Virus record (IMG/VR): IMGVR_UViG_3300042992_000713
Span: 1-23,006 of that record
Source of the DNA: a virus
Direction: 5' to 3' (one strand)
Length of the DNA: 23,006 nucleotides
Shown: one piece after another, positions 6,449 to 12,982 of the stretch
How the letters are laid out: every line of letters begins with the position of its first letter
How positions within the stretch are numbered: the stretch's first letter is position 1
The notes under the pieces: generated by a model
Database searches by the model: none
What the model was told of the DNA's origin: nothing
What the model saw: the letters and a program-made list of their open reading frames with translations, nothing else
Program-made: the position numbers and the translations under genes

Positions 6449-9301
6449 ATGGCAAATTCAAACAGAGTATTCGTTTCTCCGGGTGTGTACACATCTGAGA
6501 AGGATCTAACATTCGTAGCACAAAGTGTTGGGGTAACAACTTTAGGTTTAGTGGGTGAGGCTTTAAAAGGTCCCGCTTTTGAACCTATCTTAGTTGGGGA
6601 CTTCGACGAATTTAAAACGTATTTTGGACCAACTTCACCTGAGAAAGACGGTGCAAACAATCCTAAATACGAATTAGCATATATGGCTAAATCATACTTA
6701 CAAGAGTCTAATCAATTATTCGTAACAAGAATACTTGGTAAAACGGGGTATAAACCAGGAAGAACCTATAGTATTAAAACTTTAGGTGGAGTTAATCTTG
6801 GATCTTTAAGTGGTTCAACAACAGGAATAACATTATCGGCAACAACTGCAACTATCACAGGTTCAACAATTTATGGTGAACTTTCGGGTAAAACTGCAAC
6901 TAATGGTTCAACAGTGACTGATTATATCATTAATAAAATCGGTAAGAGTAGTGCAGCTTACGCAAATAACGATTGGTTCGTTATTGGTAATGTACCTGCT
7001 TCGGACACTTCAAGTTTAACGGGAGTAAAACTTTTATCACCAATTGGTGAAAATGCTAACAAAAACTGGTATAATGCGTTCTTTACAAAAACAGGAGTAA
7101 CTGACTCAACAATTGATGGTGTTTACTCTTATCTTTTTGTTTATTCTACAAGTTCATCTTCATTTAATGTAACAAGATACAAATACAACGCGTCTCTTAA
7201 CACAGACTATAGTGACGTTATTGTTGCTTCTTTAAGATCGAGAGGTGAATATAACGCCACACAAAGTTTAGTACTACAAGTAACAGGAACAACCGCAGTA
7301 ACATTAACCGACGTTAGTGGAATCACAATTAACCCGATGGCGGAATTTGCAATAAATGTTACAGACATTACGGGTGGAACAAAAACATTTAATTGTTCAT
7401 TAGATATCTCATCAACAAAATATATAAATAAAGTATTAGGTACTGAAGTTTTTGATAAAGTAAAAGAAGATTATCCGTTATTCGTTAACGAGGTATATTC
7501 TAACTTATTATTATCGGCTTATAGACATGGACACGTAAGAGGTTTAAGTTTAGATGTTGTATCAAATAGTGAAAGTGATAATTTTGCTCAATCATGGGAT
7601 ACTCCATCATCACCAACAATTGTATCTGAAGTTCGTGGTGGTAATGTTGCGGATTTATTCTCAGTATTAACCATATCTGATGGAGATGCTGCAAATACTG
7701 AAGTTAAGGTTACAATTCAAAACATTAATTTAGATACTGCTGAATTTGACATCATAGTTCGTGATTTTAACGATACTGACGAAAATCAAGTTATATTGGA
7801 GAAATTTTCAAGATGTTCAATGAATCCTGACGTTCCAGGTTATGTTGCAAGAAAAGTTGGTACATCTGATGGTGAATATGAGTTACGTTCAAAATTCATT
7901 ATGTTAAACATGGCAAGTAACGCTCCAATGGATGCGTTTCCCGCAGGTTTCAAAGGATTCACGTCTTCACTTATTTCAAGTAATAAATTGGGTAGTGTTC
8001 TTTATAAAACGGAATTTTTTGATGGTGGAGATGTAGTTTATTACGAATCGGATGGTTCACAAGTTCTATCTAATGGAGATAAAGTTAAGAAAGTTTCTTT
8101 AGGTTTATCCTCTCAAAATGGTTTCAAATTTGATAGTGATTTGTTCAAATATAAAGGAAACACAGCGTCTAGTAGTACATTTGGTTTCCACTTGTCAACA
8201 AACGCTTCATCAATCACAGGAACAACATATCAAACAACATCATATGATTTAGAAGGTCAATCTGGTAATGACAATAAATTAACTAACATAAACTTCCGTA
8301 AATTTACATTAGCGGTTTGTGGTGGTTTTGATGGTTGGGACATATACAGAGAGACAAGAACTCTTGGTGACCAATTTATTTATGGTAAAACAACATACAA
8401 TTTAGGTAATACCGATAACAATGGTGTATTCAGTAAAGATTTTGGAAACTCTGATTACTACTCATATTTAGAAGGAATTCAAACATATGCAAATCCTGAG
8501 GCAATTGACATTAACGTATTTGCTACCGCGGGTATCAACTTCTTCGATCACTCATCATTGACAAGTCAAGCAATTGATATTATTGAAAACGAAAGAGCGG
8601 ATTCACTTTACATCATATCAGCACCAAATGTTGATGATGCTGCAACCGTTACAGGTCACCTTGATGATTTGGGAATCGACTCTAACTATTCAGCAACATA
8701 CTGGCCTTGGATTCAAGTAAGAGACACAGATAATGCGACTCAACTTTACATCCCACCAACAGGTGAAGTATTGAAGAACATCGCGTTAACTGATAACGTA
8801 TCTTATCCTTGGTTCGCAGTTGCGGGTTATTCAAGAGGTTTGGTAAATGCAATTAAAGCTAAAAAGAAGTTAACTCTTGACGAGAGAGATGAACTTTACA
8901 AAAATAGAATTAATCCAATCGCAACATTCTCTGATACAGGTACAATTATTTGGGGTAACAAAACGTTACAAGTTAGAGAATCAGCACTTGATAGAATCAA
9001 CGTAAGAAGATTGTTATTGAGAGCAAGAAAATTAATTTCTGCAGTTGCGGTAAGATTATTGTTCGAACAAAATGACGAACAAGTAAGACAAGAGTTCTTA
9101 AGATTGGTTAACCCAATTTTAGAATCAATTAAGAAAGAAAGAGGTCTTTATGAATTTAAAGTAAGTGTTTCAAGTGATGTCGAAGACATTGACGCAAACA
9201 CTTTGAGAGGTAAAATTTACGTTAAACCTACTCGTTCTCTTGAATTTATTGATTTGGAATTCGTAATTACTCCAACAGGAGCTTCATTCGAGAATATCTA
9301 A
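6449..9301 (+). CDS. Contractile tail sheath protein, gp18-like
   Basis: A 950-residue protein that forms the contractile sheath around the tail tube. The N-terminal segment (VFVSPGVYTSEKDLTF, then TLGLVGEALKGPAFEP and DFDEFKTYFG) is the classic sheath start. The C-terminal domain is equally typical: PWFAVAGYSRGLV, LDERDELYKNRINPIATFSD, IIWGNKTLQ, DRINVRRLLLRARKLISAVA, LLFEQND, and FKVSVSSDVEDIDANTLRGK near the end. These conserved terminal parts carry the subunit-linking arms and the tube-facing core. It is much longer than T4 gp18 (659 residues). The extra length lies in the middle (about 110-650), rich in Ser, Thr and Asn, presumably outer protrusion domains. It is flanked by its own promoter-like element and a strong terminator, so it is probably a single-gene transcript. 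The start at 6449 follows an A-rich leader (AACCAAACAACAATCG). Confidence 0.97.
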   Translation: MANSNRVFVSPGVYTSEKDLTFVAQSVGVTTLGLVGEALKGPAFEPILVGDFDEFKTYFGPTSPEKDGANNPKYELAYMAKSYLQESNQLFVTRILGKTGYKPGRTYSIKTLGGVNLGSLSGSTTGITLSATTATITGSTIYGELSGKTATNGSTVTDYIINKIGKSSAAYANNDWFVIGNVPASDTSSLTGVKLLSPIGENANKNWYNAFFTKTGVTDSTIDGVYSYLFVYSTSSSSFNVTRYKYNASLNTDYSDVIVASLRSRGEYNATQSLVLQVTGTTAVTLTDVSGITINPMAEFAINVTDITGGTKTFNCSLDISSTKYINKVLGTEVFDKVKEDYPLFVNEVYSNLLLSAYRHGHVRGLSLDVVSNSESDNFAQSWDTPSSPTIVSEVRGGNVADLFSVLTISDGDAANTEVKVTIQNINLDTAEFDIIVRDFNDTDENQVILEKFSRCSMNPDVPGYVARKVGTSDGEYELRSKFIMLNMASNAPMDAFPAGFKGFTSSLISSNKLGSVLYKTEFFDGGDVVYYESDGSQVLSNGDKVKKVSLGLSSQNGFKFDSDLFKYKGNTASSSTFGFHLSTNASSITGTTYQTTSYDLEGQSGNDNKLTNINFRKFTLAVCGGFDGWDIYRETRTLGDQFIYGKTTYNLGNTDNNGVFSKDFGNSDYYSYLEGIQTYANPEAIDINVFATAGINFFDHSSLTSQAIDIIENERADSLYIISAPNVDDAATVTGHLDDLGIDSNYSATYWPWIQVRDTDNATQLYIPPTGEVLKNIALTDNVSYPWFAVAGYSRGLVNAIKAKKKLTLDERDELYKNRINPIATFSDTGTIIWGNKTLQVRESALDRINVRRLLLRARKLISAVAVRLLFEQNDEQVRQEFLRLVNPILESIKKERGLYEFKVSVSSDVEDIDANTLRGKIYVKPTRSLEFIDLEFVITPTGASFENI

Positions 9302-9624: not shown

Positions 9625-10113
9625 ATGGCAGATTTACTAATGAAAATGCCGGTTCCTTACGAACCGAAAAGACAGAACCGATTTATTGTAAGATTCCCAT
9701 CTTCTTTGGGTATCAATGAATGGTATGTAACATCAGCGGCTAGACCATCCGCAAAAATCAACGCGACTGAAATTCCTTTTTTAAATACTTCAACATATGT
9801 TGCGGGTAAATTTAGTTGGGATACCATGAGGGTAACATTTAAAGACCCAATTGGACCATCAGCGTCACAAGCGTTAATGGAATGGTTCCGTTTACACGCT
9901 GAGTCAGTTACTGGTCGTATGGGATATGCTGCCGGTTATAAAAAAGACATCGAACTTGAAATGTTAGACCCAACAGGTGTTGTTGTTGAAAAATGGATTC
10001 TTCAAGGAACATTTATTCAAGACATTAACTTTGGTGAATTGGACTATTCAAGAGATGAAATTGCAACTATCCAATGTACTTTACGTATGGATAGATGTAT
10101 ACTTGTATTCTAA
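9625..10113 (+). CDS. Tail tube protein, gp19-like
   Basis: A 162-residue protein; hexameric rings of it stack to form the inner tail tube through which DNA passes. The length matches T4 gp19 (163 residues). Typical features are the start MADLLMKMPVPYEPKRQNRF, the strand IVRFPSSLGINEWYVTSAAR followed by PSAKINATEIPFLNTSTYV, the SWDTMRVTFKDPIGPSASQAL segment with its alpha helix and ALMEWFRLHAES, and the closing strands WILQGTFIQDINFGELDYS and TIQCTLRMDRCIL. It lies downstream of the sheath gene as in T4 (18 then 19), but with its own promoter-like element and its own terminator, so it is probably a single-gene transcript made in large amounts. The start follows an A-rich leader without a Shine-Dalgarno sequence. 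Confidence 0.95.
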   Translation: MADLLMKMPVPYEPKRQNRFIVRFPSSLGINEWYVTSAARPSAKINATEIPFLNTSTYVAGKFSWDTMRVTFKDPIGPSASQALMEWFRLHAESVTGRMGYAAGYKKDIELEMLDPTGVVVEKWILQGTFIQDINFGELDYSRDEIATIQCTLRMDRCILVF

Positions 10114-10135: not shown

Positions 10136-10169
10136 AACCGATATACCAGAAATGGGTATCGGTTTTTTT
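10136..10169 (+). terminator. Rho-independent terminator of the tube gene
   Basis: AACCG (10136-10140) pairs with CGGTT (10160-10164) and ATACC (10143-10147) with GGTAT (10155-10159), with a 2-nt AT bulge and a 7-nt loop. Seven T residues follow (10163-10169). It lies 22 nt after the tube stop and separates the tube unit from the chaperone gene. Confidence 0.85.
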
Positions 10170-10214
10170 ATGTTTAAAACTTTACTTTAAGATAGTTATT
10201 GATTAAATTGTACC

Positions 10215-10964
10215 ATGGAAGAATTAAGAATTGACCCTAGAATCGCATATGATGTTGTGGAATTACCAAGTAGAGGTATCCACTATTCAAATGGTAAGAA
10301 ATCAGTAAGAGTTGCTTACCTAACTGCCGCGGATGAAAATATATTAGCGTCCCCAAATTTAATACAAACAAATGCAATAGTTAATGAACTATTAAAAAGA
10401 AAGGTATTGGATAAGGATATCCAAACTGAAGATTTAGTTGAGGAGGATAAAGAGGCAATCTTAATATTTTTAAGAAATACCGCATTTGGTTCAGAATATA
10501 AAGTTACATTAACTGACCCAAAAACAAACGAAGACTTTGAAGTTGAAATTGATTTAAGTAGTTTAGATTTTAAACCATTTACATTAGTAGCAGATTCTAA
10601 CGGAGAGTATTCGTATTTTATGAATAAATCCAAAGTAGATGTGACATTTAAGTTTTTAACACAAAAACAAGAAAATGACATAAAAGAAATTGCAAAGAGT
10701 TGGAATGGTAATGGAATTGCTCCAATTATCACAAAACAACTTGAAGGTATGATTAAATCCGTGGCTGGAGTTAATGACCCAATGAATACAAGAAATTTCA
10801 TTGAGAACATGCCAATTAAGGATTCACAAGATTTTAGAAAATATGTATCCGATAATAAGCCAGGAATTGACCTAACACAAACAGCAAAAACCCCATCAGG
10901 AGAAGAGATCCAATTTAGAATTGGGTTTGGGGTTGACTTTTTTCGCCCTTTCTACGGAGTATAA
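10215..10964 (+). CDS. Tail assembly chaperone / baseplate hub protein, gp26-like (short, unshifted product)
   Basis: A 249-residue protein. The N-terminal part DVVELPSRGIHY, with VRVAYLTAADENILASPNLI and the following LLKRKVLDKD and AILIFLRNTAFGSEYKV, matches the T4 gp26-type family ('LPSRG-Y' then 'LTA-DE-ILASP'). T4 gp26 is genetically needed for baseplate hub assembly. In this position, between tube and tape measure, such proteins act as tail assembly chaperones that coat the tape measure while the tube polymerises. The C-terminal half is soluble and helical. No Shine-Dalgarno sequence and no TATTTAT element lie before the start, so expression may depend on readthrough of the upstream terminator or on an unrecognised promoter. 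The gene ends 6 codons after a likely frameshift site, and the reading frame then continues in +1. Nine of its ten arginines use AGA; the tenth, CGC, sits in the shift site. Confidence 0.82.
   Translation: MEELRIDPRIAYDVVELPSRGIHYSNGKKSVRVAYLTAADENILASPNLIQTNAIVNELLKRKVLDKDIQTEDLVEEDKEAILIFLRNTAFGSEYKVTLTDPKTNEDFEVEIDLSSLDFKPFTLVADSNGEYSYFMNKSKVDVTFKFLTQKQENDIKEIAKSWNGNGIAPIITKQLEGMIKSVAGVNDPMNTRNFIENMPIKDSQDFRKYVSDNKPGIDLTQTAKTPSGEEIQFRIGFGVDFFRPFYGV
10938..10946 (+). other. Putative programmed ribosomal frameshift site (+1, or -2) in the chaperone gene
   Basis: The zero frame reads GAC TTT TTT CGC. A phenylalanyl-tRNA on the second TTT can move forward one base onto TTC, its better match, while the ribosome waits for the CGC codon. 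CGC is the only one among the gene's ten arginine codons; the other nine are AGA. Translation then continues with GCC in the +1 frame. A -2 slip on the T run would reach the same frame. The zero-frame stop follows at 10962-10964. No clear downstream hairpin is seen. Confidence 0.65.
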
Positions 10965-11094
10965 GAAAAATCAATTATCGGAAATTCACTACCTAATCAG
11001 GAAAGGTTTCTCATATGGAGACATTTTAACTATGCCTGTCTATATTAGACGATACTATATTGGTTATATAATGGAGTTGGAAAACACACAATAA
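10945..11094 (+). CDS. Frameshift-encoded C-terminal extension of the chaperone, gp51-like
   Basis: In the +1 frame relative to the chaperone gene, 49 codons run from GCC at 10945 to a TAA at 11092-11094. The frame is closed upstream by a TAA at 10873 and contains no ATG that could start the whole segment (the first, at 11032, leaves only about 20 residues). The product looks strongly protein-like: ALSTEYKKNQLSEIHYLIRK, then GFSYGDILTMPVYIRRYYIG and YIMELENTQ. A small 'S-GDI--MP-Y-RR-YI--I' tail of this kind is typical of the downstream domains of tail chaperones and of the gp51/gp26 group. Joined to 243 residues of the upstream gene it gives a 292-residue fusion, parallel to lambda G-GT. The fusion ends 13 nt before the tape measure start. 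Direct initiation at a TTG near 10921 is a weaker alternative. Confidence 0.7.
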   Translation, partial: ALSTEYKKNQLSEIHYLIRKGFSYGDILTMPVYIRRYYIGYIMELENTQ

Positions 11095-11107: not shown

Positions 11108-12982
11108 ATGGGACAAATAAGATATCAAACTTTAGCTAGTCAATCAAAAGACAGAGCTGCATACGAAAGAGCCGTAAAAGATTCTGCAAAAAGTTACAAT
11201 GAACAAATTGATTTAACTGAATATGAAAGGGCTTGGAAAGAGAAAGAAAACTATAACTCAAACAAACCAACTACATCAGGTTCTAAAACATTTATTGAGG
11301 CGGCTACAGGTATTTTAAAAGGACAAGAAAGTGGAGGTTATTACAAAGATATTAGTCAGTCCGTTAATTCAACAAGTGCCATGTCAATGGCAACAGGTGC
11401 TGATGGGAAATTATTAGGACCCGACCAAATAGCTCAAAATGTATTCAAGGCAGGTTTAAGTCAAATGACGGATGAATATAATAACCAAAGAAAGTTATTA
11501 GAAGACATCAATACTAAAACCGGTTTAACTGGTAAACTATCAAAAGATTTTAGAGAAGAGATTTCAAATGCGGGACCAAGATTAGCTCAATTAGGTGTCT
11601 CATTTGAAACATTAGCTGACGTTGCTCAGGGATTAGTTGATAAATCAGGAAGATTCAATTTAATTAATCAACAATCATTTGAAAAGGCTGCAGAAGTTGG
11701 GGAAGCTTATTTAGGTTCAATGGAGAGTCTTACGAACATGTTACCTGATTTTGAAAAAGTTGGTATAGGTGCTCAAGGTACATTTGACGCGGTAGAAAAG
11801 GCAGGAAAAAGTTCATTAACATTAGGTCTAAACTCACAAAGAGTTGCAAAAGATTTACAAACAAATATAGGTAAGTTAAACGAATACGGATTCCAAAAAG
11901 GAGTTGAGGGTTTAACTAGAATGGTCCAAAAATCTATTGAATTTAGATTAAGTATGGATGCAGTTTCACAAGTGGCCGAAAAGGTATTCAGTCCTGAAAG
12001 TGCATTAGAGTTATCTGCTAACTTACAAGTATTAGGTGGCGCAATTGGAGATTTCAATGACCCACTTAAATTAATGTATATGGCGACAAATAATGTTGAG
12101 GGATTACAAGATTCAATTATTAATGCCGCAAGTAGTTTAGCAACATACAACCAAGAACAAGGAAGATTTGAAGTTACGGGTGTTAACCTAAGAAAAGTGA
12201 GAGAGATGGCTGCGTCTTTAGGTATGGACTATAAGGAACTTACAAAGACCGCAATTGCGGCACAAGAAAGATTGAGTGCTAAAGAAATGTTAACTGGTTT
12301 AAGAATTGAAGATGCCGATAAGGAATTCTTAACTAACATGTCTCAGATGAAAAATGGTAAAATGACCATTGAATTACAATCTGAAGAATTGAAAAAACGT
12401 TTTGGGGCAAATGAAGTTGCATTAGAGGATTTAGATAAGAACCAAGCTGAATTATTATTACAATATAGAGACGAATTTAAAAAATTAACATCTGATGAAA
12501 TAGTTAGAAACCAAGCTAGTGACGTTGAAAATATTAGACGTGATGTATCCTTTTTAGTTAAATCAGTTGCATTAACTGGAACAAGAGAAGTTCAAGAGAT
12601 GGCCAAAAAATTGGGTATTGATTTTAAAAATTTCGCAGATGTAACAAAAGAAACATTACCAAAAGCGGCAACTTTAATCAATAATGAAATAAAAGGTATA
12701 GTTACACCTGATAAAAAACAAACAGGTAAAGTTGAAACACCAAAAGCTGCGGTAACCCAAGAAGATGCTAAAAAAATGGCGGAAGAAGAAGCTAAAAAAC
12801 AAAAAGAAGCGTCTACTCAAATGGATAAAAATGTCAAAGTAACAAACGAATATGTATTCAAAGGTGGAGACACTTTAGTTGATGGTTGGATGAGAGAAGT
12901 AGGTAAGAACGCAAGTATCTATAACGATTTCCATACCGTAGATACCCAATCGTATACTACACCATCAACCGCTAAAAGATAA
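11108..12982 (+). CDS. Tail tape measure protein
   Basis: A 624-residue, largely helical protein. It lies directly downstream of the chaperone/frameshift gene, the standard place for a tape measure, which fills the tube lumen during assembly and sets tail length. Visible features are a polar N-terminal region (1-110); long amphipathic helices with heptad-like patterns (about 125-330 and 360-530) including SKDFREEISNAGPRLAQLGV and LELSANLQVLGGAIGDF; a Lys/Glu/Ala-rich coiled coil (about 535-580, EDAKKMAEEEAKKQKEASTQ); and a short C-terminal region that probably contacts the baseplate initiator. No obvious membrane helix is present. The length is close to T4 gp29 (590 residues). Using the rule of about 0.15 nm per residue, the tail would be near 95 nm. 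No peptidase or lysozyme motif is seen. The assignment rests on context and helical composition. Confidence 0.85.
   Translation: MGQIRYQTLASQSKDRAAYERAVKDSAKSYNEQIDLTEYERAWKEKENYNSNKPTTSGSKTFIEAATGILKGQESGGYYKDISQSVNSTSAMSMATGADGKLLGPDQIAQNVFKAGLSQMTDEYNNQRKLLEDINTKTGLTGKLSKDFREEISNAGPRLAQLGVSFETLADVAQGLVDKSGRFNLINQQSFEKAAEVGEAYLGSMESLTNMLPDFEKVGIGAQGTFDAVEKAGKSSLTLGLNSQRVAKDLQTNIGKLNEYGFQKGVEGLTRMVQKSIEFRLSMDAVSQVAEKVFSPESALELSANLQVLGGAIGDFNDPLKLMYMATNNVEGLQDSIINAASSLATYNQEQGRFEVTGVNLRKVREMAASLGMDYKELTKTAIAAQERLSAKEMLTGLRIEDADKEFLTNMSQMKNGKMTIELQSEELKKRFGANEVALEDLDKNQAELLLQYRDEFKKLTSDEIVRNQASDVENIRRDVSFLVKSVALTGTREVQEMAKKLGIDFKNFADVTKETLPKAATLINNEIKGIVTPDKKQTGKVETPKAAVTQEDAKKMAEEEAKKQKEASTQMDKNVKVTNEYVFKGGDTLVDGWMREVGKNASIYNDFHTVDTQSYTTPSTAKR

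Follow-up and report, generated by a model that had tools for sequence, protein, structure and literature searches.

A tail assembly chaperone gene of the T4 type with a probable programmed +1 frameshift and a gp51-like extension

Does a tail assembly chaperone gene of the T4 type end at its stop codon, or is it continued in a second reading frame? The question arises at gene 10215-10964 of a virus contig of 23,006 bases (the whole stretch analysed, hereafter the window), in which genes for tail sheath, tail tube and chaperone and a gene in the tape measure position follow one another (Table 1). The chaperone gene thus sits between the tail tube gene and a putative tape measure gene, the latter assigned from position and annotated relatives: family searches with 11108-12982 gave no significant match, and the equivalent gene carries a tape measure annotation in immuto and LIS04.

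Some features of the neighbourhood deserve mention in their own right. The tail sheath gene is long (950 aa), with sheath families matching its C-terminal part only. A hairpin followed by a T run was seen by eye at about 10137-10172, 3' of the tail tube gene, and is absent from the list of the terminator scan. Three relatives (L007, L008 and L009) are near-identical to the window through the chaperone gene and diverge abruptly at the next gene (11108), as if the gene in the tape measure position had been exchanged among them like a cassette.

Table 1. Coordinates of the chaperone gene, its proposed recoding site and neighbouring tail genes in the 23,006-base window.
Feature	Position	Strand	Remarks
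Tail sheath gene	6449-9301		family matches
Tail tube gene, 5' of the chaperone gene	9625-10113	+	phrog_4542, 1.1e-28; PF06841, E 9.1e-06, below its cut-off
Short tail assembly chaperone, zero-frame ORF (gp26-like, PF12322/phrog_150)	10215-10964	+	249 aa plus stop
GGGG, 5' of the slip site	10929-10932	+	candidate stimulator
Putative shift site TTT TTT CGC	10938-10946	+	E-site TTT, P-site TTT, A-site CGC (rare Arg codon)
P-site TTT, proposed to re-pair with TTC	10941-10943, to 10942-10944	+	within the shift site
Zero-frame end RPFYGV plus stop	10944-10964	+	overlaps start of +1 extension; pLDDT <50 at residues 246-249
+1-frame extension, gp51-like C-terminal domain	10945-11094	+	49 codons plus stop; three predicted helices
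Putative tape measure gene	11108-12982	+	by position and annotated relatives

The slip site and its conservation

The 3' end of the chaperone gene reads GAC TTT TTT CGC CCT TTC TAC GGA GTA TAA, the stop coming six codons on from TTT TTT CGC. The +1 frame entered at GCC (10945) is open for 49 codons, encodes ALSTEYKKNQLSEIHYLIRKGFSYGDILTMPVYIRRYYIGYIMELENTQ and stops at 11092-11094. Translation of the short form fused to this tail gives 292 residues. These features agree with a sequence-only reading of the window, which had also pointed out, rightly, that CGC is unique in the gene (nine AGA and one CGC among its Arg codons). Its further statement that the tail has no usable ATG holds: counting from 0, the first ATG is tail codon 29, in the middle of the tail, though weak TTG starts do exist upstream, three of them in the +1 frame directly 5' of the slip site.

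A single open frame of 49 codons is weak evidence alone, with a chance of 424/20000 (about 2%) under a dinucleotide model. We therefore turned to relatives. With the short form as query, 35 were found among viral contigs, and a profile scan found at least 576 related stretches (of 600 listed), from which the best 80 were taken, 79 of them new. Among the matches listed, the set readable through the N-terminal part comprised the window and 113 relatives, that is 114 loci (85 distinct); one locus (L099), whose contig breaks off within the gene, was left out.

The slip codon, a nearby stop and the open +1 frame were kept in the window and in 113/113 readable relatives among the matches listed. The P-site codon was TTT in 113 loci and CTT in one, and the A-site codon was CGT (54), CGC (47), CGG (8), CGA (3), CTC (1) or TGG (1), giving CGN in 112/114. 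Counted over distinct loci, TTT occupied the P site in 84/85 and CGN the A site in 83/85, as compared with 8% CGN among 699 Arg codons in these genes; in seven ORFs of the window CGN made up 21 of 188 Arg codons. The residue encoded at the A-site position in the +1 frame varies (A, V, G, D or S). This combination of TTT and CGN is as predicted if a slow codon in the A site follows a slippery UUU_C. The zero-frame stop lay 4-7 codons past the site in the 85 distinct loci, and the +1 tail was complete in 110/114, with lengths of 45-66 codons among 81 distinct complete tails. Alignment of relatives, proposed as a check in the earlier reading, thus bore out the expected conservation of the slip site and the open +1 frame. 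The opposite was found for the zero-frame end, which had been expected to vary: RPF[YF] is strongly conserved (P in 83/85, F in 85/85), because both frames overlap there.

Since the conserved features include the slip codon, the stop and the open frame together, chance was rejected as an explanation of the open frame. A miscounted base in the T run, named beforehand as a finding that would overturn the frameshift, was likewise rejected as very unlikely, because separately assembled contigs agree.

Further evidence came from selection on the extension. Across 56 comparable tails the median pN/pS was 0.43 in the tail frame, as against 1.00 and 1.28 when the same DNA was read in its two other frames; the 30 codons directly ahead of the site gave 0.53. 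The pairs compared are not independent, and many are near saturation. These values indicate that the +1 tail is evolving as a protein. GGG stood at codon -4 in 75/85 distinct loci versus 10% GGG among Gly codons, and may be a stimulator. A fold of the RNA round the site, computed without pseudoknots, was no better than shuffles (z 0.70) and gave no stem-loop stimulator. No tRNA gene, including a phage tRNA for CGN, was found within the 23,006-base window.

In order to avoid the bias of a zero-frame query, we ran a second search with two tails alone, which recovered 118 loci. This set shares some contigs with the N-part set, and 52 of its keys were new. One locus (L152) runs off its contig and was excluded from the upstream assessment; in 117/117 of the remainder the tail and a long ORF ahead of it were in different frames, and an in-frame fusion of the two was found in none. 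That ORF had at least 228 codons, whereas upstream of the tail its own frame stayed open for no more than 23 codons (117/118). The P site was TTT in 118/118 and the A site CGN in 117/118, with CCT in L182. All 14 long relatives, whose records are possibly fragments, had one PF12322 gene above cut-off; the two-gene layout of T4, with short and long paralogues, was not seen among them.

Collectively these data suggest that one gene, 10215-10964, very probably encodes two forms of a tail assembly chaperone through programmed +1 frameshifting of the ribosome.

Direction of the shift and other routes to the extension

The sequence-only reading had named the shift as +1 or -2. We prefer +1, because 4/114 loci of the N-part set and 2/118 of the tail-found set have TTC TTT at the site, where -2 re-pairing would land on TCT. 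Hence +1 is the best direction for the window clade and, by inference, for this phage. A -2 shift on TTTTTT would reach the same frame with one residue added, and T6 is indeed present in 109/114 and 116/118 loci; phage Mu is given as a user of -2 in PMC5009743. Such a shift has no need, however, of the C after the P-site codon, which is kept in 113/114 and 118/118 loci, and the rare A-site CGN suits a P-site slip of +1 rather than one of -2, so that we regard -2 as improbable. The T run that speaks for -2 would also permit slippage of RNA polymerase, by which one U is dropped and the frames are fused in part of the mRNA. T6 occurs in most loci, but at the site of the TTCTTTC loci no more than three Ts stand in a row, and this explanation, which we hardly credit, would leave selection for a rare codon behind the run without purpose.

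The tail might instead be a separate small gene with its own start or translated by re-initiation, as annotated for cyanophage gp51, where the annotated gene is a small ORF. An ATG, GTG or TTG is present in the +1 frame between the last stop and the slip in 69/85 loci, the window's TTGs included, and a start codon falls within the first 13 tail codons in 22/81. In 9/81 distinct loci, however, the stretch that begins at the last +1-frame stop and runs to tail codon 24 has no ATG, GTG or TTG, and an ATG occurs within the seven +1 codons upstream in 0/81. A separate start would give the conservation of CGN and TTT at the junction no role. Furthermore, a helix at residues 240-243 of the short form could continue into the first tail helix, as judged from parts modelled separately. 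A separate gene is thus very improbable, and we go on with a ribosomal +1 shift.

Homology of the short form and the extension

The short form matched PF12322 (E 3.5e-9, 37.1 bits, cut-off 24.5) and phrog_150 'baseplate hub' (8.4e-12). No significant sequence matches to solved structures were obtained. An AF2 model of the short form had a pLDDT of 88, with the last four residues, past the slip, below 50. The best solved matches of this model were HK97 gp13 (2ob9; Z 5.5, 95 aligned, 4.4 A) and YqbN (3klu; Z 5.0, 83 aligned, 4.0 A), the next row having Z 2.6; both are tail assembly chaperones according to PMC9603447. A Z of 5.5 is middling, and plain Foldseek against the PDB gave no significant match (HK97 gp13 at E 1.4), while 53 viral models had E <=0.001, several of them named baseplate hub or gp26. 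The model is therefore consistent, at middling Z, with the chaperone fold of HK97 gp13 and YqbN.

The tail was modelled as three helices with a pLDDT of 94. Its fold had no match with E <=0.001 in BFVD, and its best PDB row, with 12 chains compared, had Z 3.1. In profile comparison by hhalign, the tail profile aligned with the C-termini of T4-type gp51 at a probability of 64%, a score reached by 0/100 column shuffles. With 0/100 shuffles as good in each case, it also aligned with extensions from cyanophages (49%), jumbo phages (95%, 6 sequences), Gram-positive phages (95%, 3 sequences) and the group immuto/Mel-JY01/LR756508 (98%). The cyanophage extensions in turn aligned with the gp51 C-termini at 96%; the link from the Gram-positive-phage extensions to gp51 was weak (14%, 1/100 shuffles as good). 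The family phrog_634 'baseplate hub assembly catalyst' was matched by 12/71 tails (best E 4e-5; next family 3/71), and the window's own tail alone matched no PHROG. A plain HMM search of the tail gave no significant gp51, the best E of 0.24 falling behind a shuffled decoy at 0.16 (1000 decoys). The comparison of the tail with gp51 and HMMs, suggested with the original observation, therefore favoured gp51 by profile alignment and phrog_634, and failed as a plain search. With these weak points, the long form appears to carry a gp51-like C-terminal domain, and the comparative data support the original proposal that a T4-type tail chaperone is extended by recoding with a gp51-like part.

In T4 itself PF12322 and phrog_150 each match gp26 and gp51. 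T4 gp26 ends in EFFELL, near the zero-frame end, and gp51 extends some 40-50 residues further; both are in a list of hub assembly chaperones in PMC3004832. T4 resembles the window in family, in a short form ending near FF and in a long form with a tail-related C-terminal domain, but has two separate genes where the window has one gene and recoding.

From the gene architecture, its conservation, the coding selection on the tail and the homology of both parts we infer ribosomal shifting, its direction in this phage, the ratio of products and their function, as in the following model. Most ribosomes would terminate at 10964, and their product, the short form of 249 residues, would be the counterpart of T4 gp26. 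In a minority, translation would stall with Phe-tRNA on the P-site TTT while the A site holds CGC, a rare Arg codon; the Phe-tRNA would slip one base forward to TTC, its better pairing, and reading would resume at GCC. The resulting long form would have 292 residues, its three-helix C-terminal domain corresponding to the end of T4 gp51. If lambda gpG/gpGT is a guide, the tape measure protein would be coated by short chaperones in large number and long ones in small number, and the latter would recruit tail tube subunits through their additional domain. The gene is like the lambda type in lying between tail tube and tape measure, in slipping near the 3' end and in the resemblance of its modelled fold to HK97 gp13, and a conserved overlapping frame was found at the site; the minor long form is the conjectural part of the likeness. 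It differs in a shift of +1 instead of -1, in its sequence family and in its 249-aa short form.

Recoding and duplication among T4-type relatives

Tail assembly chaperone genes of T4-like phages were reportedly identified by Vladimirov, Gautam and Davidson in 2022. Their short and long genes are presumably gp26 and gp51. Two later papers, both citing Vladimirov et al. 2022, state that some T4-like phages have a short gene and a longer fused gene without a frameshift (PMC10885494) and that polyT -1 signals are known in their TAC-N genes (PMC12846349). The sequence-only reading knew of no described case in the T4-related line, a point to be corrected, since such frameshifting is to some extent on record. 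PMC5009743 describes G-T frameshifting as a conserved feature of long-tailed phages 'except T4' and lists -1, -2 and +1 versions, with archaeal HSTV-2 as a very likely +1 case. Cyanophage gp51 is said to retain the C-terminal part only (PMC3037559), which fits the -1 extension that we read in S-RIM8 and S-CAM8.

A comparable site is that of influenza PA-X, where UUU_CGU was mapped as a +1 site at which UUU re-pairs to UUC beside the rare CGU, and a class of UUU_C +1 sites with restricted A- and E-site codons was predicted (PMC3498833). Both a UUU_C P site and a rare A-site codon were found in the window clade (TTT 84/85, CGN 83/85). The PA-X site UCC_UUU_CGU is thus like the site of this clade in the UUU_C P-site slip to UUC, proposed here, and in the rare A-site CGN, but it has no common descent with it, works on a eukaryotic ribosome and has UCC in the E site versus UUU or UUC here. 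In the literature searched, outside which most subscription papers lie, no report of a +1 case in the PF12322 chaperone family was found. As far as these sources go, the short and long chaperone genes of T4-like phages and their polyT -1 signals are already published; the +1 variant with UUU_CGN and the range over which it occurs are new, as is a tree in which the T4 pair is one duplication.

We then read the chaperone gene in 29 other records, chosen for spread and not at random, whose extensions were not each tested for homology. The extension lay in the +1 frame in 9/29 (immuto, Mel-JY01, LR756508, SP-15, LIS04, GXN1, S-SCSM1, a WOR-3 MAG and a Woesearchaeota MAG) and in the -1 frame in 13/29 (RAS14, XacN1, PA5oct, BF, GAP32, RaK2, Atu_ph07, LR756511, Munch, Bakedbeans, Cygsa01, S-RIM8 and S-CAM8). 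T4-type records with an in-frame long gp51 made up 6/29, a separate short gp26 gene being read in five, and a Bacteroidaceae MAG (L143) had no clear extension (1/29). The T-rich -1 sites of jumbo phages and cyanophages occupy the same place in the same gene and lead to a related extension, but with the opposite direction and another site than in the window.

Individual sites varied. That of Listeria phage LIS04 (TTT TTT AGT) is a poor fit to +1 re-pairing, and -2 fits better. LR756511 has T TTT TTC some 20 codons ahead of the zero-frame stop, earlier than in other phages. The Cygsa01 junction, C ATT TTC, has a TAATG overlap, so that re-initiation is possible there. At a T run in nearly the same place, cyanophage S-SCSM1 (L131) requires +1 and S-RIM8 and S-CAM8 (L139, L140) require -1, possibly a natural switch, or an indel or error. 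The WOR-3 MAG chromosome (L142) and the Woesearchaeota MAG contig (L144) have TTT TTT TGG and an open +1 tail; these chaperone relatives in bacterial and archaeal bins may represent prophage, injection system or contamination.

In an unrooted tree of 53 N-terminal parts, with long branches, gp26 and gp51 of the T4 type came out as sister groups (99/95), and the window clade was joined to immuto, Mel-JY01, LR756508 and both MAG loci (100/98). The -1-frameshifted chaperones of jumbo phages and cyanophages fell in branches other than the window clade. The tree required 5 changes of mode versus 22 with shuffled labels. It suggests that the gene pair of T4 is one duplication among mostly recoded relatives in this sample and, unrooted and long-branched as it is, that recoding likely came first and duplication later. 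A broader proposal, which we offer tentatively and hold to be somewhat more doubtful than probable, is that recoding is ancestral in T4-type phages and has moved between +1 and -1, that gp26/gp51 is a derived duplication that replaced it, and that the UUU_CGN of this clade is the phage counterpart of the PA-X UUU_C class, with the ratio of long to short form set by the host supply of CGN tRNA.

In public records the gp51-type extension is either missing from the annotation or listed apart from the chaperone, as in immuto, Mel-JY01, SP-15, BF and GAP32. Matched by position and frame, the extension or its end is deposited as a separate hypothetical protein in L039 (4728-4964), L042 (4740-4859), L037 (4827-4937), L126 (2295-2474) and L127 (2298-2474).

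About 134 distinct natural TTT_CGN sites (83/85 plus 51/52, a few of them maybe partial copies) would now be available for work on bacterial +1 frameshifting. The T4 tail has long passed for an exception; it would be set beside the rule of long-tailed phages that one gene gives two chaperones by recoding.
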